A stretch of DNA of 33,972 nt from Candidatus Moraniibacteriota bacterium (GTDB taxonomy: Bacteria > Patescibacteriota > Minisyncoccia > Moranbacterales > UBA1568), in assembly GCA_903859375.1 (NCBI GenBank), contig CAIOMK010000025.1, positions 1-33,972 on the forward strand. The letters are read 5' to 3'. The notes under the pieces are model-generated. The model was not told where the DNA came from. It saw only the letters and a program-made list of their open reading frames with translations, and searched no databases. A program made the position numbers and the translations under genes. Positions 8 through 9,194 of this stretch are shown in pieces (position 1 is the first letter of the stretch; each line of letters opens with the position of its first letter).

Positions 8-261
8 TTCCCCATTGTCAGTTGTCAGTTGCAAGTTGTCTGTTCCCCGTTCCCGTTGTAAGTTGTCTGTTCCCCGTTGTCAGTTGTAAGTTGTAAGTTG
101 TCTGTTCCCCGTCCCCCGTTGTCAGTTGTCAGTTGCAAGTTGTCTGTTCCCCGTTCCCGTTGTAAGTTGTCTGTTCCCCGTTGTCAGTTGTAAGTTGTAA
201 GTTGTAAGTTGTCTGTTCCCCGTCCCCCGTTGTAAGTTGTCAGTTGCAGGTTGTAAGTTCC
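8..261. repeat. Heptanucleotide tandem array (minus-strand words AACTTAC/AACTGAC/AACGGGG/AACAGAC) with 104- and 111-bp higher-order period
   Basis: Minus strand parses as consecutive 7-mers starting AAC (occasional GAC and 6-mer AACGGG). The block starting TTGTCAGTTGTCAGTTGCAAG at 15 recurs at 119 (period 104); the next partial copy is one heptamer longer. Confidence 0.93.
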
Positions 262-356
262 GTCGCGAAAAATGTACCTGACCCCTTTGTTTTGTCCCGC
301 GTGGGGAGTGTTTTTTAAACCGAGGTGATTCTGGATTTTTACCAACGAAATCTTTT

Positions 357-1361
357 TTAGGCCGCCAATTTGAGTCGCGCTTCATACTCCGCATTTTTCG
401 CCGTATCCAGCGATATTAATGAGGCATCCCTTTCGATACCAGCGGCAGCCAATTGTTCTTTCAATGCGATCACTTCCGGATCGCTGTCCACGTTTCTCAT
501 GGAATCAATCTCCGCACGACGGACATTCCCATATTGGGCATAAGTATCGTTATCCACGATACCGTCATTCAACAGCCGAAACACCTGGTCGCTTTTCTCT
601 TCGAACAGGCTCGAAAGGTTTTCCTGACTCAACGGGCTCCCCTCATACGCCTTCACGTCGTTGATCAGCCCCTGAAGCATATCCATCTGTTTCTGTATCG
701 GGTTCTTTCCCTGATCCTGTGATTCCCCCTTGTCCCGCTTTTCCCTTAATGTATTCATCATTATCGCCAAGGGACCATTTTCGGTGTCACGAAAAGCATT
801 GCCCATACCTTTGAAAAAGGCCGAGTATGTCCTTACGGATTCCGATTTCATATTCGGATTACCGTTATACTTCCTTTCCAATTTCTCCTGCATGTCTTGA
901 ATCGTCTTTTCATTCGCGTCAAAAATCGCCTGTCTTTCTGCCAGATCGTTCTTCAACCCCTCATATTGCACCTGCAAGGCCTCGCTCTCGGCCGTCGGTG
1001 CTTCCGCGACCAAAGGACCTCCGCTCTTGATCTGTTCCGCGAGCGAGTCCGCATTCGCCTTATCGGTCGAAACACTCTCATTATCCGCAAGCTGTTGCGC
1101 TTCCCGCTCAGCGGTCTCGTCTACGGTGGGTTCGGCCGACTCAGCCAACTCCGGTTGCTCTGCTGTTACACCCTCGCCAGAAGCCTCTTTCCCTATCTCT
1201 TCTTGCAAAGCTTTCGCCTCTTCGGCAAGTGCGGACAGTTTGTCGAATTCGAAATCATCGGTCGCTTTTTTGATTTCCGCGTTCAAGGCATTCAATCGTT
1301 CCTGCGCCGAAGCCTTCTTCGCTTCCTGTCCCGGCACGGAATCTTCGGGAGAAAAACCCAT
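357..1361 (-). CDS. Hypothetical protein, Glu/Ala-rich, predicted coiled coil
   Basis: 334-aa ORF with heptad-like charged helices (KKASAQERLNALNAEIKKATDDFEFDKLSALAEEAKALQEEI); promoter upstream at 1391-1419. Confidence 0.75.
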   Translation of the reverse strand: MGFSPEDSVPGQEAKKASAQERLNALNAEIKKATDDFEFDKLSALAEEAKALQEEIGKEASGEGVTAEQPELAESAEPTVDETAEREAQQLADNESVSTDKANADSLAEQIKSGGPLVAEAPTAESEALQVQYEGLKNDLAERQAIFDANEKTIQDMQEKLERKYNGNPNMKSESVRTYSAFFKGMGNAFRDTENGPLAIMMNTLREKRDKGESQDQGKNPIQKQMDMLQGLINDVKAYEGSPLSQENLSSLFEEKSDQVFRLLNDGIVDNDTYAQYGNVRRAEIDSMRNVDSDPEVIALKEQLAAAGIERDASLISLDTAKNAEYEARLKLAA

Positions 1362-1390
1362 ACAAATTCTGTTATTGCTTATATGCAGTC

Positions 1391-1419
1391 ATTATAGAAT
1401 TTTTCCACACGAACACCAA
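1391..1419 (-). promoter_or_regulatory. Sigma70-like promoter for the coiled-coil hypothetical gene
   Basis: Minus strand TTGGTG-17 nt-TATAAT (-35 at 1414-1419, -10 at 1391-1396), 30 bp upstream of ATG 1361. Confidence 0.6.
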
Positions 1420-1450
1420 ATGCAAGAATACATGACAACACGACTATTGG

Positions 1451-2929
1451 TTATGATTCCAGCCTTTTCCGAAGTATCTCGGAAACCACCTGCGGATTCG
1501 CCTTACCTTTGGTCTCCTTCATAATCTGACCGATGAGGAATTGAAAAGCGTTCTGTTTGCCGGCACGGAAATCCTCGACAGACTTGGCATTCGCTCCGAG
1601 AACCGTATCGACGATTCCTTCGAGCGCCCCCGTATCACTCACCTGTCCGAGGTTGAGTCGCTCGATGATGTGCGACGGGTCATTGTCCCCACCCAACAAC
1701 ATCTCTGCCAAGACCGCCTGTGCGGCACTCGAATTGATTTTCCCGTCGGCGAGTATCGATATGAATTCGGCATAGTTCTCCGGTGTGATTCCGGACGTGT
1801 CGACAGTCTTCCCGAGATCGGCGAGCCGTTTGCGCAGTTCGGTGACGAGATAGTTCGCAGCGAGTCGGATCGCCTTCTCCGTGTCGGCTCCGAGCTCCTC
1901 CGATTCCTTCTTGGATTCGATCTCACTCACGACCGATTCGAAATAGTTCGCGGTTGGCTTCTCGGCAGTAATCACCGAGACCGCCTCACCGGAGAGACCG
2001 TACTGCTCCGTGAACCGTTTTTCCTTGCCTGCCGGCAGTTCGGGAATGGTCTTTCGAAGTATGTCGAAGTCCGCCTCCGTGAACGAGAATGGCGGGATAT
2101 CCGGCTCTGGGAAATAGCGGTAATCATGCGCCGATTCCTTCTTGCGCTGGGAAACGGTCCCCTGCCGGTTCTCATCCCACCCCCTTGTTTCCTGGGCGAT
2201 AGCACGACCAGCCTCGAGCTCTTCGGTCTGCCGACGGATTTCGAACTCGATCGATTTCTCCACCGCCTTGAACGAATTGATATTCTTCACCTCGACTTTG
2301 GTGCCGGAGAGTTTCTCCGTACCCTCTTCATGAAGCGAGATATTCACCTCGCACCGCATCTGTCCCCTTTCCATGTCGGCGTCGGATATATCGAGGTACC
2401 GGAAAATCTGCCGGAGCTTCTGACAGAACAGACGCGCGTCGGAAGACGATTCGATATCCGGTTCCGTCACGAGCTCCATAAGCGGAACGCCGGCGCGGTT
2501 GAGATCGACGAGCGTGTAGTCGGCTCCGGCCGGATGAGTGAGCTTGCCGGTATCCTCCTCCATGTGGATACGGGTGATGCCGACCGTCTTGCCCTCACGG
2601 ATTTCCAATTCGCCCCGTCCGCAGAACGGCTCGTCGTACTGGGAAATCTGATACCCCTTCGGGAGGTCCGGATAGAAATAGTTCTTGCGGTCGAATTTCG
2701 AATGTGTCGCGAGCGTACAACCGAGAGCGAGTCCCGCACGTTGGACGGATTCGATCGCCTTCCTATTCGGGGTCGGGAGCGCTCCCGGCTGTGCGGTGCA
2801 GACAGGACAGATATGGATATTGGGTTCGGACTCCTGCCCGAGACCGTTCTTGCACGCACAGAACATCTTGGACGCCGTCTTGAGCTCCACATGCACTTCC
2901 ATGCCGATGACCGGGATGAGTTTTTTCAT
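1451..2929 (-). CDS. gatB: Aspartyl/glutamyl-tRNA amidotransferase subunit B
   Basis: MKKLIPVIGMEVHVELKTASKMFCACKN...CPVCTAQPGALPTPNRKA...DLNRAGVPLMELVTEPD is the GatB signature; full length 492 aa. Confidence 0.98.
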   Translation of the reverse strand: MKKLIPVIGMEVHVELKTASKMFCACKNGLGQESEPNIHICPVCTAQPGALPTPNRKAIESVQRAGLALGCTLATHSKFDRKNYFYPDLPKGYQISQYDEPFCGRGELEIREGKTVGITRIHMEEDTGKLTHPAGADYTLVDLNRAGVPLMELVTEPDIESSSDARLFCQKLRQIFRYLDISDADMERGQMRCEVNISLHEEGTEKLSGTKVEVKNINSFKAVEKSIEFEIRRQTEELEAGRAIAQETRGWDENRQGTVSQRKKESAHDYRYFPEPDIPPFSFTEADFDILRKTIPELPAGKEKRFTEQYGLSGEAVSVITAEKPTANYFESVVSEIESKKESEELGADTEKAIRLAANYLVTELRKRLADLGKTVDTSGITPENYAEFISILADGKINSSAAQAVLAEMLLGGDNDPSHIIERLNLGQVSDTGALEGIVDTVLGANAKSVEDFRAGKQNAFQFLIGQIMKETKGKANPQVVSEILRKRLES

Positions 2930-2998
2930 AGATTCATTGTTTCATTGCTGCATTGTTTCCATCCCCTCGTTGAAAATCATCTGTTATCTGTTACCTGC
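2930..2998. repeat. AAC-NNNN heptamer tract filling the dut-gatB intergenic region
   Basis: Minus: AACAGAT AACAGAT GATTTTC AACGAGG GGATGGA AACAATG CAGCAATGA AACAATG AATCT-ATG. Confidence 0.75.
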
Positions 2999-2999
2999 T

Positions 3000-3425
3000 T
3001 CATGATTTCCCCGTACTGCCGAATCCGCCGTCTCCACGAATGGTAGCATCAAGTTCCGAAACTTCACAAACGTCCGGAAACATGACCGGCTGAACGAGTA
3101 TCTGAGCGATCCGCTCTCCTGCAGCGACCTCGTATGGGACATCGGACGTATTCAACATGATGACACCCCACTCTCCCCGGTATGAGGCATCGATGACGCC
3201 ACCGAGATTCGTGATCCCGCTCTTCGCCGCGAGTCCCGACCGGTCCCATATGAGCCCGACATGACCCGATGGTATCGCGATGGCGACGCCTGTCCGAGCC
3301 ACTCGCCGTTCCCCCGGACCCACCACGAAACTTTCGAGTGAATACAGGTCCAGTCCCGCATCCCCTTCGTGTGCACGGGTCGGCAACACCGCTTTCGGAT
3401 CAAGTTTTTTCACGTCAAGATTCAT
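3000..3425 (-). CDS. dut: dUTP diphosphatase
   Basis: Motifs EGDAGLDLYS, RSGLAAKSGI, GVIDASYRGEWGVIMLN, GERIAQ, RGDGGFGSTG in order. Confidence 0.97.
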   Translation of the reverse strand: MNLDVKKLDPKAVLPTRAHEGDAGLDLYSLESFVVGPGERRVARTGVAIAIPSGHVGLIWDRSGLAAKSGITNLGGVIDASYRGEWGVIMLNTSDVPYEVAAGERIAQILVQPVMFPDVCEVSELDATIRGDGGFGSTGKS

Positions 3426-4024
3426 ACGATTTCGAAATGCTTGTCGAGTATCGCCCGTATATCCTCCGAGACCGCTTCGATATCACGGTTCGCGTCCACG
3501 CGTTCCCAGCCGTACCGCTCGCCGAGCAGAAAATGAAAGTTCTTGCAGATCGTTATTCGTTCCGATTCCATCTCATTGCGATGATCCTTCTCGACGGCCG
3601 TCAGGAACCGGCTCCCGTGCATCAGGATCTCCACGTCCGGTTTCAACAGATGTCCGTTTATCCGCTCGAGATATTCAAGCTCCCCTCCCCAGGTCAATCC
3701 CCATGCGACACCCGTCCCGACATAGTCTTCCGCGACGATCCACTCTCCCGCATCGAGTCGCTCTTTGAGTGTCGACTCGTAGCGAGCCCGGTTCTCGGCG
3801 TATTTCTCCTGCAACGCATGTGTGGAAAGTTCGTTCCCGGCACGGAATTCCGGATCCCGAAGATACCGGTGGATAAACGGGCCTTCCGGTTCCAGATCGT
3901 ACACCGGGTATTTGAGACGCGACGCGCTCTTTCCCTGCCCACGAAAAAATTCCACAAGCGCTTCCACCTGCGTCGTTTTTCCGATGCCGTTGATCCCGTA
4001 TATGGCGATGAATTTCCCTTTCAT
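3422..4024 (-). CDS. tmk: Thymidylate kinase-like P-loop kinase (ORF can extend to 4054)
   Basis: MKGKFIAIYGINGIGKTTQVEALVEFF Walker A and KYPVYDLEPEGPFIHRYL; overlaps dut start by 4 bp. dTMP kinase assignment from sequence resemblance and context. Confidence 0.75.
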   Translation of the reverse strand: MKGKFIAIYGINGIGKTTQVEALVEFFRGQGKSASRLKYPVYDLEPEGPFIHRYLRDPEFRAGNELSTHALQEKYAENRARYESTLKERLDAGEWIVAEDYVGTGVAWGLTWGGELEYLERINGHLLKPDVEILMHGSRFLTAVEKDHRNEMESERITICKNFHFLLGERYGWERVDANRDIEAVSEDIRAILDKHFEIV

Positions 4025-4063
4025 AACAAGCGTATTTATTCGATCCATCGACAAGTGGTTCTG

Positions 4064-4639
4064 TTACTGATGCGACTCATTCGCCTCCTTCTGCAACTCC
4101 GCGACGATATCGTCCACCTGTGAGTACAGGTCTTCGAGCGACCCGTCATTGTTGATGATGAAGCGCGCCTCGGACCTGAGTGCCGAGATGCCGATCTCCG
4201 TCTCGAGGAGATGATCCTTTTGGAAATCCTCGAAGGTCTTGGTCTCGTCGTCGGCGTTCTGACGACGTCTCACGATACGCTCGTACCGGGTCTTGATATC
4301 GGCCTCGACATACAGGAGCGAGAATTCCGGAAGTTCCTTCACGGCTTCGATATCGGACTGGCGCCGTACGCCGTCGATGACGACGAACGATGGCGGATCG
4401 TTTGCCGCGTCGCTCGCGATACTGTGTGAGAGGATATTGTCCCCGAACTCCGTCCGGATCGCTCCCGAGACACGCGTCAGGTTCTCCCTGGTCTGCGCAA
4501 GATGCAACCGGTCGAGCACATCTCGGAGCGGATCCGAAAGGAAAAAGATCCTGGCGCCGTAGCGGTTCTCGAGATAGTGGGTCACCGTATCCTTTCCCGA
4601 AACGATTTCCCCTGCGATGCCGATGATTATCTTTCTCAT
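4064..4639 (-). CDS. P-loop nucleoside/deoxynucleoside monophosphate kinase-like protein
   Basis: MRKIIIGIAGEIVSGKDTVTHYLENRYGA (Walker A GEIVSGKDT), VVIDGVRRQSDIEAV, YERIVRRRQNADDETKTFEDF. Confidence 0.72.
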   Translation of the reverse strand: MRKIIIGIAGEIVSGKDTVTHYLENRYGARIFFLSDPLRDVLDRLHLAQTRENLTRVSGAIRTEFGDNILSHSIASDAANDPPSFVVIDGVRRQSDIEAVKELPEFSLLYVEADIKTRYERIVRRRQNADDETKTFEDFQKDHLLETEIGISALRSEARFIINNDGSLEDLYSQVDDIVAELQKEANESHQ

Positions 4640-4786
4640 AATTTTTTTATTACATTGTTATATTGCTGAATTGTTTCATTGCTTCCGCTCCCTGTTCCAT
4701 GTTCCCTGTTCAATGTTATCTGTTCACTGTTCAATGCTTCCACTCTCTGTTCCCGTTGTTAGTTGTAAGTTGTAAGTTGTAAGTTG
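4640..4786. repeat. AAC-NNNN heptamer tract filling the thyX-to-kinase intergenic region
   Basis: Minus: AACTTAC x3, AACTAAC, AACGGG, AACAGAG..., AACAGTG AACAGAT AACATTG AACAGGG AACATGG AACAGGG ... ending at the ATG of the kinase. Confidence 0.85.
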
Positions 4787-6079
4787 TCATTTGACCGAAA
4801 TATCCTGCAGTCCCCGCCGGACGTCCCAATCATCCGGATCAAAGTCGACATACAGCGTCACTTCCGGAAACCGCTTCGATATCTCGTCTCCCATCTTCTG
4901 CGCTATCGGCCGCAGTGTCGGGTGGACGGTCTTCCCGCTCCGCAACTCGACGAGATAGACGAGCCCCGGCAGGTCGAATGTGTATCGGCACGGCATACGG
5001 AATCCCATCGCGATAAGGTACTGCTTCTCTTCGGGTGATGCGTCGATCCCTTCGATTGCCACGGACTGTTCGGCGATGAGCGTTTCCGCGATCACACGCA
5101 AAGCCTCCGGCAATTGGTCGAGGTACCACGGATGGAACCCGTATCCGGTCGTATGCAAAGGCATCTGATGAATACCGACCCGGTGGCGTTGCAGATCGCG
5201 ATAGGAGCCGAAGTCGAGCAGGAAGTCGAACGTGAACGTGCCGAGCGCACGCAGGAATGACGGGAGGTTCGTTTTTGTCGGACGCTTCCCGAGAACATCG
5301 GAAAACGGAAGCAGGGATTCTTTTTCAATGGTCGTTCCCGCGACGAATTCCGCCGGAAACGATGTCGGTGCGAAATAGGTATGTTTCGACAGGATGTCCT
5401 TCCGATAGGATTCCTGTGCCTCGTATGATTTGTGACCGAAACTGTTCGGATATCGCGTTCTCAGGACGTCGAGCATCCCTTCCGCGACCTCGCGGACCTC
5501 GACAAGCGGATGATGCCGGAGTATGGAAAGTTTGTCCCAGGCCTGACGGAGATTCGTGTGCCACGAAAGCTGGGTCGTCGTCCCTGCCGGCAAAAACCCG
5601 CGAAGGATATCGAAGGAACGCGCCTTGATAGCCTTGTCATATACGTTCCCGTTCTCGTCATCTTTTTTCGGAAAGCGTTTTTTCAGATGCTCCTCGACCG
5701 CCGGGCCGGAAGAGACATAGAATTCGTGCCACTTGCGGATGATTTCCTTTGACGCATCCGTCTTGATCGGATCTTCGATTGGCTGACGGCTCATGTCTAT
5801 ATAACGGGTACTCGTTTCCTGTCCGGAATAGAGTGGCCAGTCCTGTATCGCCTTTGCGGCAAGCATGCTCACCCCTTCGGCAAAAAGCGTCGTGCTCCCG
5901 CAGTCGGCGATGGACATATGTCCGTAGCCCACATAGAACCGTTCCATGAACTTTCCCGAGCCGGATTCCCTCACTTTCGCGACATGTTTCTCCACGCTGT
6001 CCGCACTGCGTGAATATAGTGCCTGCATCATCGCCACATCTTCGGGTCCGTATTCGTCGTACAGAAAAATCTTGGGCAT
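4787..6079 (-). CDS. thyX: FAD-dependent thymidylate synthase, double-domain (fused/duplicated) form
   Basis: 430 aa; N half GHMSIAD..SGQETSTRYIDMS..ILRGFLPAGTTTQLSWHTNLRQAWDKLSILR; C half LQRHRVGIHQMP..GFRMPCRYTFDLPGLVYLVELRSG. Confidence 0.85.
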   Translation of the reverse strand: MPKIFLYDEYGPEDVAMMQALYSRSADSVEKHVAKVRESGSGKFMERFYVGYGHMSIADCGSTTLFAEGVSMLAAKAIQDWPLYSGQETSTRYIDMSRQPIEDPIKTDASKEIIRKWHEFYVSSGPAVEEHLKKRFPKKDDENGNVYDKAIKARSFDILRGFLPAGTTTQLSWHTNLRQAWDKLSILRHHPLVEVREVAEGMLDVLRTRYPNSFGHKSYEAQESYRKDILSKHTYFAPTSFPAEFVAGTTIEKESLLPFSDVLGKRPTKTNLPSFLRALGTFTFDFLLDFGSYRDLQRHRVGIHQMPLHTTGYGFHPWYLDQLPEALRVIAETLIAEQSVAIEGIDASPEEKQYLIAMGFRMPCRYTFDLPGLVYLVELRSGKTVHPTLRPIAQKMGDEISKRFPEVTLYVDFDPDDWDVRRGLQDISVK

Positions 6080-6112
6080 TGGTTTGGTATTTCACGATCC
6101 CGAATCTCCATT

Positions 6113-6130
6113 TTCGCATGAATATGCGAA
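6113..6130. other. Inverted repeat TTCGCAT-GAAT-ATGCGAA in the thyX leader
   Basis: Perfect 7-bp arms, about 34 bp upstream of the thyX ATG. Confidence 0.6.
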
Positions 6131-6193
6131 GGTCGCAAACAGCCCTTCTGAGCGGTACTTTCCCATTTCAGGACCATTTTTCCGATTTCACTG

Positions 6194-6224
6194 AAAAAAC
6201 AAGGCTCCGATAAGCCTCGTTTTA
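6194..6224 (-). terminator. Intrinsic-terminator-like hairpin (possibly bidirectional)
   Basis: AAACAAGGCT-CCGATA-AGCCTCGTTT with A/T tails on both sides. Confidence 0.7.
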
Positions 6225-6256
6225 GATATTTTCAAAGTTCGACACCACATCAACTC

Positions 6257-6276
6257 CCTTGTGGCACGCCACAAGG
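6257..6276. other. Near-palindrome CCTTGTGGC-AC-GCCACAAGG
   Basis: Perfect 9-bp arms with 2-nt centre in the thyX upstream intergenic region. Confidence 0.7.
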
Positions 6277-6347
6277 TATCCTCCGACTTGTCATTCCGGA
6301 CGGGTCACGGTCGTTCGGAATCCGACAGCATCAAACACGAGGAGGGA

Positions 6348-6396
6348 ATAAAAAGGGCGGCGTATCATCATGGGTTGATGAGGATACGTCGCCATA
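6348..6396 (-). terminator. Intrinsic terminator of the TIM-barrel/glycosidase-like gene
   Basis: Minus: GGCGACGTATCCTCATCAA-CCCA-TGATGATACGCCGCC followed by CTTTTT. Confidence 0.85.
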
Positions 6397-6401
6397 TACC
6401 G

Positions 6402-7634
6402 CTACTGATTGAAATAGCTGAGGCCGATGCCGAGCGCATCGTTTTTTTTCGTGAAGGAGAACAGGACGTTCCTGAGCGGATTATTCCGGTCGTTCAGGTC
6501 ACCGTATGACCAATCGATATGTTCGCTGGTCCGTATCTTATCCTCCGCGAACAGGTTGATGGAAACCGTATATCCTTCTCTCTTGAGCTGTCGCGCGTTC
6601 CGGAGAAGCCCGCCCAGTACGATGGCCCGTTCGGCCGGCGTACAAGAGAGAAGCGTGCCTCCCTGATTCATCTTCCCGAACGTTCCGGAGTTTATCCAAA
6701 TCCGGCCGACACCGAGCCACTTCGCAGCGGATGCCGCACGTTCGACATGCAAGAAAGCATCGGGCGACATCGAGACAACGTCCTCGTCACGCTTCCCGGA
6801 CTTCCACGGAAACCCCTGAATACCAAAACTTTCCACAGTCCTCGGGATGATGTCCTGGATGTACGGCAAGAAATCCACATACCGTGCGTTCGCCCATTTC
6901 GTGTCCGACGGGTCATACGATGCGGCGTTCATGAGGATCGTCCCTTTCGCACCGGGATATCTTTCCCGAAGTATCGGGAAGAACCGGTTCACCATGATCG
7001 AGAAATCCCCGGGGAAAAACCCCCTCTTGTCCCATATGGGAGCGTTGATCTCGGGATAGGGAGCCCATTCCCCGATCATCGTCCCGACAACGCCGTTTTC
7101 ATGGAGAAAAGAAAACAGGTCACGGAGAAACGGGTCATATTCCCCCGAAGCGATACCGGCGAGCGGGATGTCTTTCCCGGACTCGGTTTTCGGCTCGAAA
7201 ATGACAATCGGTGTGATACCGAACCGATGGAATTCCTTCAACCTCGGAGCGAGACCGGATGCGATCGACTGCGCCTGTTCCCGACTTTCCGGAAAACCGA
7301 CGAAACACATCACGCGATCCGTCACCAACGAGCCACAGATGTCCTGATATTCCGAGAGACGTCGCAGGCACGGGAGCGTGCCGGTCTCAAGGCCACCGAG
7401 TTTCTTTTTGGTCGAGAAACGTCCGTCCTTTTCTAGGGAGGCGGTTTCCGAGACAGTCACTTCCTCTTCATCAGCCCTCATCCGCAGCTGCCACCAAACG
7501 ACAGCTGAAATGCTTATGCCGATCAGAAGAAATAACATGATGCGTGACCTCGTACGCTTTCCATCAGACCCGTCTTCACAAACGGAATGAAAAATATTCC
7601 GGCGAAAAAACCGGGAGAGCGATTCTTTTCCCAT
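6402..7634 (-). CDS. Membrane-anchored glycoside hydrolase-like (TIM-barrel) hypothetical protein
   Basis: One N-terminal TM segment (IMLFLLIGISISAVVWWQL) then a barrel-like sequence with GTMIGEWAPYPEINAP, ILMNAASYDPSDTKWANARYVDFLPYI, WLGVGRIWINSGTF. Fold call by pattern only. Confidence 0.55.
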   Translation of the reverse strand: MGKESLSRFFRRNIFHSVCEDGSDGKRTRSRIMLFLLIGISISAVVWWQLRMRADEEEVTVSETASLEKDGRFSTKKKLGGLETGTLPCLRRLSEYQDICGSLVTDRVMCFVGFPESREQAQSIASGLAPRLKEFHRFGITPIVIFEPKTESGKDIPLAGIASGEYDPFLRDLFSFLHENGVVGTMIGEWAPYPEINAPIWDKRGFFPGDFSIMVNRFFPILRERYPGAKGTILMNAASYDPSDTKWANARYVDFLPYIQDIIPRTVESFGIQGFPWKSGKRDEDVVSMSPDAFLHVERAASAAKWLGVGRIWINSGTFGKMNQGGTLLSCTPAERAIVLGGLLRNARQLKREGYTVSINLFAEDKIRTSEHIDWSYGDLNDRNNPLRNVLFSFTKKNDALGIGLSYFNQ

Positions 7635-7694
7635 TGCAACCTCCTTCTTATTCGTTTCGAGAAAATATGTTTGAAATGTTAACGTTCCGCATAC

Positions 7695-7724
7695 AATATC
7701 TCAGTTCTCTCCTCCTTTTGTCAA
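7695..7724 (-). promoter_or_regulatory. Promoter for the TIM-barrel gene
   Basis: Minus TTGACA (7719-7724), 18 nt, GATATT (7695-7700); AAGGAGG ribosome-binding site before ATG 7634. Confidence 0.5.
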
Positions 7725-7805
7725 TACTGAAAAAAACAAGTGCATTCAAATAAAAAAAGAGGTCTTCAACAAGGTAAGATGAAAGCACCAAGAAGGTTCT
7801 GTATA

Positions 7806-7838
7806 TAAAAAGGGAGTGTCCTTCAAGACGACTCCCTT
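7806..7838 (-). terminator. Intrinsic terminator after the 166-aa hypothetical gene
   Basis: Minus AGGGAGTCGTC-TTGAAG-GACACTCCCTTTTTATA. Confidence 0.8.
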
Positions 7839-7856
7839 CCTCACTTCCGCAATCAA

Positions 7857-8357
7857 CTACACACTGTTCCGGCAAAAATCAAGATCGACGCCCGGAGTCT
7901 CTCCTAGGTCCAAAAGAATTTTCCTCGCGATCCGCTCCGCGCCCGACTCTTTTGAGTCGAGTTGGTTAACGGCGTATTTCGCCTGCCAGACAATCGAGTC
8001 CGCCTCAGAAAATGATTTGAGATCATTCGCATACAAAGAGAGACCGAAGCGTACGATAATCGGCGGTATTTTTTCGCAATATTTTTCAATCTCGATAATC
8101 AAATAGTCACGGAATTTTCTCGATGGTTTAAGGTACGGAAGAAAATTTGAGTATTCGTCTATGACCGCAATCGAATCAAATGTCGGCAGACCCTTCTCAA
8201 ATTCACCTGCAAAGACGCTGAGGTGAAGAAACGATATGTTGCGATAATATTCGTCACCACATTTCAAATCCCCTTTTAAGATTATCTCGGCCTTATCACC
8301 GGCAATTTCCGAGTGAAAAAATCGGATATCTCCGAGCATCCGTATTTCTTGCGTCAT
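7857..8357 (-). CDS. Hypothetical protein (166 aa)
   Basis: ORF with SD (ACAGGAGGCTGTTATG), its own promoter and terminator; no family recognised. Confidence 0.75.
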   Translation of the reverse strand: MTQEIRMLGDIRFFHSEIAGDKAEIILKGDLKCGDEYYRNISFLHLSVFAGEFEKGLPTFDSIAVIDEYSNFLPYLKPSRKFRDYLIIEIEKYCEKIPPIIVRFGLSLYANDLKSFSEADSIVWQAKYAVNQLDSKESGAERIARKILLDLGETPGVDLDFCRNSV

Positions 8358-8432
8358 AACAGCCTCCTGTTTTTTTGGTTAATAGTTTCAAGATTTGTTA
8401 AACAACACATGGTCGTCAGATGACGGCAAACT

Positions 8433-8460
8433 ATAATAGCATACCGTACATACCCGTCAA
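8433..8460 (-). promoter_or_regulatory. Promoter of the 166-aa hypothetical gene
   Basis: Minus TTGACG (8455-8460), 16 nt, TATTAT (8433-8438); palindrome CGTCAGATGACG at 8414-8425 near the expected +1. Confidence 0.55.
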
Positions 8461-8512
8461 TTATCTGTCCCCAACAACGGGAAATACCCGTCATGGATGA
8501 GAAAAAGAGGAG

Positions 8513-9112
8513 CTACTTGCCCCCCTTTTTGGTTGTTTTCGTTTCGGACTTCTTGAAGTTGAGATACATCTTCGACGCGACCGGTTTCTTGTCACCGAAG
8601 TATTTGGAGTTGAGGCCCTTGGAGCCGTACGGCCGATCACACGGCGATGAAAGTGGTTCGAATGCAATCTGTCCGATGGACATCCCATAGTGGAGCTTGA
8701 TCGGCAGACGTCCCGCGTTGAAAAGCTCGAGCGTGAGGTGAAGAGAGTTGCCCGGATCGAGGTATCCCGCGGTCGTATGAATGATGAGTCCGAGTCGACC
8801 AAGGGAGCTCTTGCCCTCGAGGCGACCGACGAAACTGTCAGACACGCCCGTCTCTTCAAAAATCAGTCCGAGTGCGAACTCTCCCGGATGCAAGATGAAC
8901 GGTTCGTTCTTTTTCATCTCCACCGGTTTCATGAGGCCTTCTGCCGGTGCCTTCGGATCGATGACGAAATTGTGTGTGGTATCGAACACGAGAAATTGCC
9001 GATCGAGATGCAGATCGACGCTCGCCGGTTGCACGTACTTCCGATTGAACGGTTTGATGATGATGCCACCCTTTTTCTGTTCCTTGATGATGTCGCGATC
9101 TGAAAGAATCAT
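8513..9112 (-). CDS. dcd: dCTP deaminase
   Basis: MILSDRDIIKEQKKGGIIIKPF...QPASVDLHLD...FVGRLEGKSSLGRLGLIIHTTAGYLDPG...LTLELFN. The 271-aa ORF start at 9328 is an artefact of reading through the repeat leader. Confidence 0.94.
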   Translation of the reverse strand: MILSDRDIIKEQKKGGIIIKPFNRKYVQPASVDLHLDRQFLVFDTTHNFVIDPKAPAEGLMKPVEMKKNEPFILHPGEFALGLIFEETGVSDSFVGRLEGKSSLGRLGLIIHTTAGYLDPGNSLHLTLELFNAGRLPIKLHYGMSIGQIAFEPLSSPCDRPYGSKGLNSKYFGDKKPVASKMYLNFKKSETKTTKKGGK

Positions 9113-9194
9113 AGACGGATAATTAAAAGTCAAAAGTCGAAAGTCAAAAGTCAGGAGGCCGTAGTCCACGGTCGAAAGTTGAACGTTGAACGTC
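9113..9194. repeat. RAC-NNNN heptamer tract in the dcd leader
   Basis: Minus: GACGTTC AACGTTC AACTTTC GACCGTG GACTACG GCCTCCT GACTTTT GACTTTC GACTTTT GACTTTT AATTATC CGTCT-ATG. Confidence 0.85.

Follow-up and report, generated by a model that had tools for sequence, protein, structure and literature searches.

Heptamer arrays in the window

The DNA analysed here, referred to as the window, is a stretch of 33,972 nucleotides in which tandem seven-base words were found next to gatB, dut, thyX, dcd and the genes for thymidylate kinase, dNMP kinase and ribosomal protein L1. The initial annotation had described four tracts built from heptamers of the type AAC-NNNN, and three of these proved to be heptamer arrays. 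The longest, at positions 8-261, comprises three minus-strand runs of RACNNNN words (15, 15 and 5 words, 35 in total), which are separated by two phase slips of 1 base at AACGGGAACGGGG. Its words mainly conform to RACNNAY, with AACGGGG and AACAGAC admixed, and the tract shows a 104-base higher-order repeat. It extends between the contig end and the gene at 357-1361, whose stop codon faces the tract, and its AAC strand runs away from this stop codon.

The tract at 4640-4786, in the thyX-dnmk gap, contains two minus-strand runs with different words. Six words at 4690-4731 belong to a lexicon of the AACAGNN type (AACAGTG, AACAGAT, AACATTG, AACAGGG, AACATGG and AACAGGG), while the RACNNAY array at 4751-4786, with its run of five words at 4751-4785 (AACTTAC three times, AACTAAC and then AACGGGA), begins 1 base past the thyX stop codon with the AAC strand leaving it. 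Upstream of the ATG of dcd, the tract at 9113-9194 likewise comprises two minus-strand runs, namely four words of the RACTTNN lexicon at 9125-9152 (GACTTTT, GACTTTC, GACTTTT and GACTTTT) and five words at 9160-9194 (GACGTTC, AACGTTC, AACTTTC, GACCGTG and GACTACG), which are in register with the former and separated from it by a single non-conforming word. The longest RAC runs of these three tracts (15, 6 and 5 words, respectively) were not reached in any of 2000 dinucleotide shuffles of each tract. The fourth tract, at 2930-2998, was rejected, because its longest RAC run of only 2 words was equalled by 12% of the shuffles and no excess at lag 7 was detectable; TRF assigns it a period of 8/16 (AAACAATG CAGCAATG AAACAATG). 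As had been noted, the tracts at 2930, 4640 and 9113 are each flanked by a stop codon and the following ATG. Elsewhere in the window, RAC runs at periods 4 to 12 never exceeded 3 words. Searches of the window and six other loci against Rfam gave only tRNAs above the gathering score, leaving the arrays unmatched.

A period of seven with several lexicons

The expectation that further tracts would exist elsewhere in the genome was borne out, since five consecutive RACN4 words were matched 95 times, with overlaps, at about 35 distinct sites of the genome to which the window belongs. Such runs occur in all six genus members, are patchy across the rest of the family and become prominent once more in certain other families of the order. 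With the strict pattern ACAACNNACAACNNACAACNNACAAC, 1 to 78 matches were obtained per genus member and none with the reversed pattern used as a control. These genome surveys rest on sampled stretches. An unanchored scan of the sampled stretches for periods 4 to 16 detected segments with period 7 or its multiple 14 and hardly any with other periods; indeed, only 7 and 14 clearly exceeded the Markov control, which agrees with the special status initially given to the heptamer.

Different loci do use different words, as had been observed in the window, and several lexicons coexist: RACNNAY, RACTTNN, AACAGNN together with AACATGG and AACAATG, and ATTCNNN with its complement GAATNNN. The AAC-NNNN grammar was therefore too loose a description. 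The main lexicon is RACNNAY, a skeleton of five near-fixed bases and two free ones, and other lexicons need not contain AAC at all. Some arrays are homogeneous, such as one with 12 copies of GACTTGT. AACTGAT words occur as well, yet arrays mix many RACNNAY words instead of repeating the exact word TAACTGA. Words within a tract resemble each other equally whether they are adjacent (similarity of 0.33) or distant (0.34), and the similarity between tracts is 0.15. This lack of a closer likeness between neighbours means that slippage by single units is not the visible driver.

Two further observations concern the genome G000. Its RACTTNN arrays (L091 1174-2240, L036 3300-3850 and L094 4019-4372) are part of larger repeated blocks of the form TTCCCGCTTT-GACTTGT...-GACTATTCTCC, which are adjoined by a GC-rich palindrome, TGCCGGGTCGTAGCCCGGCAT. 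In addition, the contigs C7, C10, C13, C21, C24, C25, C31, C56, C60 and C76 carry heptad arrays a few hundred bases or less from their ends. Assemblies therefore probably break at arrays, and array counts in draft genomes are probably too low.

Gene edges set the orientation of RACNNAY arrays

In gaps with RACNNAY words on one strand only, the AAC strand led away from the nearest gene edge in 26 cases and toward it in 3, counting arrays within 60 bp of an edge. The rule held at stop codons (15:1) as well as at start codons (11:2). All 14 gaps with RACNNAY words on both strands were convergent. These counts give one vote to each gap and exclude the genome G004, and some of the counted gaps are orthologous between species, so that the votes are not all independent. 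Opposite-strand RACNNAY arrays within 250 bp of each other faced one another in 32 cases and were back to back in 2, a count that includes both of the close relatives G001 and G004. Arrays mostly start 1-17 bases from the gene edge, and at stop edges the TGA or TAA frequently belongs to the first word. The gene ends were called for this analysis with a hexamer-based method (coding fraction of 0.83 of the sampled DNA), so that individual edges may be misplaced, although errors of this sort should not bias the orientation in one direction at start and stop edges alike.

Outside the genus the rule was repeated, with 20:3 near edges and 11:0 for convergence. Three genomes of other families contributed 5:0 and 4:0, respectively (with at least 2 words per arm for one of these genomes), other loci of Patescibacteria 12:3 and 4:0, and loci of Nitrospinota, WOR-1 and Bacillota 3:0 and 3:0. 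For the loci of other Patescibacteria and other phyla (15:3 and 7:0 together), only arrays lying outside the pattern used to fetch them were counted. The RACTTNN lexicon, including the blocks in G000, does not obey this rule.

The strand shared by all tracts in the window had been taken to be the coding strand of their neighbours. The shared minus strand is real, but it is incidental because all neighbouring genes in the window are on the minus strand; genome-wide, the strand follows the gene edge that an array touches. Nor is the strand tied to the downstream gene, as the AAC strand leads away from start and stop edges alike. Convergent pairs are also found in divergent gaps, and single arrays that have no partner, which are common, obey the orientation rule as well. 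Given that the rule is equal at the 5' and the 3' end of genes and that divergent gaps contain convergent pairs too, transcription does not set the orientation. Gaps between tandem genes had a median length of 163 with arrays versus 91 without. A facing layout was also seen with a different lexicon in G012, which represents another genus of the family: its dut-gatB gap (L065 7515-7635) carries AACAATG-type words on both strands as an imperfect inverted repeat, laid out as in RACNNAY pairs.

Evolution of the arrays between relatives

In aligned orthologues, RACNNAY words changed at rates of 0.03-0.05 at positions 2, 3 and 6, of 0.09-0.10 at positions 1 and 7, where the changes were mostly A/G and C/T, and of 0.13-0.17 at positions 4 and 5. 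We reason that about half the free rate is to be expected for a neutral skeleton, because words that lose the skeleton drop from the count. Skeleton changes amounted to about half of this ascertainment-corrected neutral expectation, so that the skeleton is under a constraint, albeit a modest one. Individual orthologous alignments had suggested that the arrays are invariant, a view that did not survive the full count: the overall rate of RACNNAY arrays was equal to or just slightly below that of the local flanks, and other lexicons changed as fast as their flanks or faster. The numbers of observed versus expected changes were 26 vs 43.8 for G001/G004 and 3 vs 22.7 for G000/G003, while other pairs were about neutral. 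The deficit in G000/G003 is mostly due to one element beside tRNA genes. A convergent pair directly upstream of tRNA genes (L050 3873-4039 and L130 3860-4026) is nearly identical in G000 and G003, with 5 changes in about 210 counted sites (other tract sites included) and flanks that are about 17% different. It is possibly a functional leader.

Length changes in steps of 7 bp had been anticipated between orthologues. Whole-word steps were indeed seen in some, such as a 14-base step between L149 and L148, but across all aligned arrays only some of the alignment gaps have a length divisible by 7. The thyX-dnmk gap illustrates several outcomes: the gap is common to G000 and G003 with whole-word length differences, other words (AGCAGNN and AATCATG) occupy the gap in G001 and G004, and in G005 it is short and array-free. 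Another gap holds convergent RACNNAY words in G001/G004 and AAGTCNN with GACTTNN, equally convergent, in G000/G003. At orthologous edges of G001 and G004 (L147/L146), arrays persist with substitutions mainly at free positions. The differing words at shared orthologous gaps therefore indicate that position and period persist while words turn over.

A heptad insertion was also noted inside a putative miaA coding sequence, identified by eye, at one shared site in four species (L061 6085-6140, L063 5839-5891, L062 5749-5806 and L064 approximately 6870-6920). Its words differ, being GACTTGT in G001/G004, GAATTTC in G002 and GATTCTT-like in G005. Downstream of gatB in G001, G004 and G005 lies a gene that, read by eye, resembles a REP-associated tyrosine transposase (L061 4940-5700, L063 4700-5450 and L064 5800-7200), with GTAGAGACGCCCCGTCGGGGCGTCTCT palindromes around and inside it.

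Distribution across phyla

The arrays are not peculiar to this lineage. The convergent RACNNAY pair pattern matched at least 117 stretches in species genomes, against a chance expectation of about 0.03 matches (uniform base composition, 24 fixed bases, 31 spacings and 257 billion bases). Among the matches listed, facing pairs were found in about ten phyla, including Patescibacteria, Nitrospinota, WOR-1/Saganbacteria/Margulisbacteria, Methylomirabilota, Bacillota, Bacteroidaceae, Acidobacteria, Chloroflexi, Verrucomicrobia, Desulfobacterales and Actinomycetota, and TAACTGA arrays have been published (PMC4679880). Some of the cross-phylum pairs, such as the one in Kitasatospora L151, form near-perfect palindromes that could be ordinary terminators. 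Among 380 evenly sampled Patescibacteria, the genome of the window was the only one that matched the strict pair pattern, which is thus rare per genome. A full-text literature search with partial coverage found no published description of such arrays in Patescibacteria.

Two candidate causes were rejected. Loss of mismatch repair does not explain the patchy distribution, as MutS_I gave no match in the 38 genomes of the order that were searched, whether these have arrays or not. The presence of DNA polymerase IV (IMS) does not track the arrays either: it is encoded by all six genus members and by the array-free G018, and is absent from the array-bearing G029, G034 and G037.

Possible origins of the arrays

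Convergent pairs can fold into long imperfect hairpins, several of which span the whole gap from the stop codon to about 8 bases before the next ATG. This raises the view that selected RNA stem-loops are formed by an array after a stop codon and a complementary array before a start codon, and that these protect, cut or uncouple polycistronic mRNA. The mild constraint on the pairing skeleton positions and the transitions at positions 1 and 7, which keep G-U pairing, are consistent with it. The free bases of the two arms, however, are no more complementary than those of shuffled arms (0.48 vs 0.53), and words with G1/T7 are equally frequent in sense and antisense arms, so that there is no wobble bias toward an RNA strand; a hairpin with matched arms was rejected on these grounds. 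Moreover, the orientation rule extends to partnerless arrays, convergent pairs are present in divergent gaps as well, and back-to-back pairs, which would fold equally well, are almost absent. We consider RNA stem-loops rather unlikely. Much the same doubt attaches to a factor that would bind DNA or RNA through RAC..AY contacts spaced 7 bases apart and mark gene borders. The position-specific constraint and the persistence of arrays at orthologous edges of G001 and G004 would suit such a factor, whereas a lineage-specific factor does not predict a skeleton that is patchy in unrelated phyla, and equivalent edges in other species can carry a different lexicon.

The roughly constant layout of the convergent ends, which often enclose cores of 30-50 bases, could also point to a small mobile element that has heptad arrays as inverted ends and inserts in gaps. 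Within a genome, however, the cores of different elements are unrelated, except for orthologues and a small number of short matches; none of 29 elements showed target duplications, single arrays are common, and the free bases of the two ends are unmatched. Lacking a shared core and target duplications, a transposon- or MITE-like element was rejected, and we regard a mobile origin as very unlikely. Ordinary neutral slippage repeats, with no rule of orientation or position beyond the avoidance of genes, would fit the homogeneous arrays and the rates of change at or slightly below the local rate. In many bacteria, long simple repeats are also most often heptanucleotides, and contact of the polymerase with seven bases has been suggested as the reason (Mrazek 2007, to the extent that it is cited in PMC4679880 and, for the abundance, in PMC4692102). 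This explanation nevertheless seems clearly unlikely to us in view of the edge rule and the convergence, the occurrence of one skeleton in unrelated phyla and the uneven substitution along the word.

Our preferred reading, which we hold tentatively and regard as somewhat short of probable, is that the arrays are of the long-simple-sequence-repeat kind and are made and resized at the DNA level during replication or repair, lengthening gaps from their edges inward. An origin in DNA replication or repair is favoured over an RNA stem or a transposon because the arms are unmatched and there is no RNA-strand bias, no shared core and no target duplication. Slippage by 7 nt, or reiterative copying, at 3' ends in gaps or breaks would build the arrays and alter their length seven bases at a time. 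Where both 3' ends of a break were extended with the same repeat strand, joining them would give a convergent pair, in which the AAC strand leaves the old sequence on each side and the free bases are unmatched; the unmatched arms thus fit an independent extension of the two ends. Arrays inside genes would be purged, so that those in gaps survive, and the skeleton could be held by a copying preference or by weak selection. From extension of 3' ends into a gap one would thus expect convergent as well as single arrays, arms that do not match, lengthened gaps and a recurrence among unrelated phyla, and neither a regulator nor an RNA function is needed to explain the layout.

In favour of this DNA-level origin we count the edge rule, the convergence, the longer gaps with arrays, the short array-free gap in G005, the whole-word steps and the patchy recurrence. 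Against it stand the lack of likeness between neighbouring words, the alignment gaps that are only in part multiples of 7, the RACTTNN arrays that are off the edge rule, the opposite orientation of TAACTGA in Beggiatoaceae (PMC4679880), the DNA polymerase IV genes that do not track arrays and the absence of MutS. The skeleton constraint also counts against it, as a purely mutational account does not predict such a constraint unless arrays keep being re-made. An extended version, which we regard as a decidedly improbable one, is that a conserved bacterial process of DNA-end or gap filling extends both 3' ends of an intergenic break by seven-base repeats, in the fashion of telomeres, and that the convergent RACNNAY pairs along the gene edges of many phyla are its scars.

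These observations bear on the preference of many bacteria for seven-base units among their long simple repeats. A strict rule, combining a skeleton, an orientation set by gene edges, convergence and recurrence across phyla, makes its cause testable, and the edge-set layout argues that a process acting on DNA lays the arrays down from the edges of gaps and that they are not placed for transcription. The arrays would then supply very small genomes with new intergenic DNA.

Comparison with known systems

The heptanucleotide class of cyanobacterial STRR or long simple sequence repeats (LSSR), reportedly tandem seven-base units in non-coding DNA, was initially named as the nearest analogue, and this is a fair comparison. 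The present arrays likewise consist of tandem seven-base units in non-coding DNA, in runs longer than expected by chance, and belong to this class. To our knowledge, no edge or strand rule has been described for these repeats. REP/BIME palindromes, which are associated with RAYT transposases, are single conserved palindromes that form intergenic inverted pairs across a genome. RACNNAY pairs are similarly intergenic, inverted and spread over the genome, but they are tandem repeats with unrelated cores.

A close parallel is provided by the (GGGANTN)n or GGGAATC heptamer arrays of Xanthomonas, with about 185 arrays per genome that are mostly intergenic and form 70-75 convergent close pairs, and by the GGGGA(T/C)T arrays of Nostoc, as described by Rehm et al. 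2015 (PMC4692102). These arrays share with RACNNAY the period of 7, the combination of fixed and free positions and the mostly intergenic location, and those of Xanthomonas also share the convergent pairs. Their skeleton, however, is G-rich and quadruplex-forming, whereas RACNNAY cannot form G-quadruplexes, and they lie nearer to the 5' neighbouring ORF; they are not known to follow a strand rule at both gene ends, as RACNNAY arrays do.

TAACTGA direct repeats have been described in Beggiatoaceae, Cyanobacteria and Bacteroidetes, where they are intergenic, near gene ends and patchy across phyla, and in Cyanothece strains the arrays differ mostly in 7-nt steps (MacGregor 2015, PMC4679880). When rotated, TAACTGA gives AACTGAT, which conforms to RACNNAY, and the two kinds of array are alike in their intergenic, gene-end and patchy occurrence. 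In contrast to the mixed words of RACNNAY arrays, those of the Beggiatoaceae genome consist nearly entirely of one exact word on the sense strand, with a single inverted case, and they lead toward the start codon, which is the opposite of the RACNNAY orientation at start edges (PMC4679880). Heptanucleotide repeats, TAACTGA arrays and convergent GGGAATC arrays were therefore known already, and the present arrays differ from them in the skeleton and in the edge rule.
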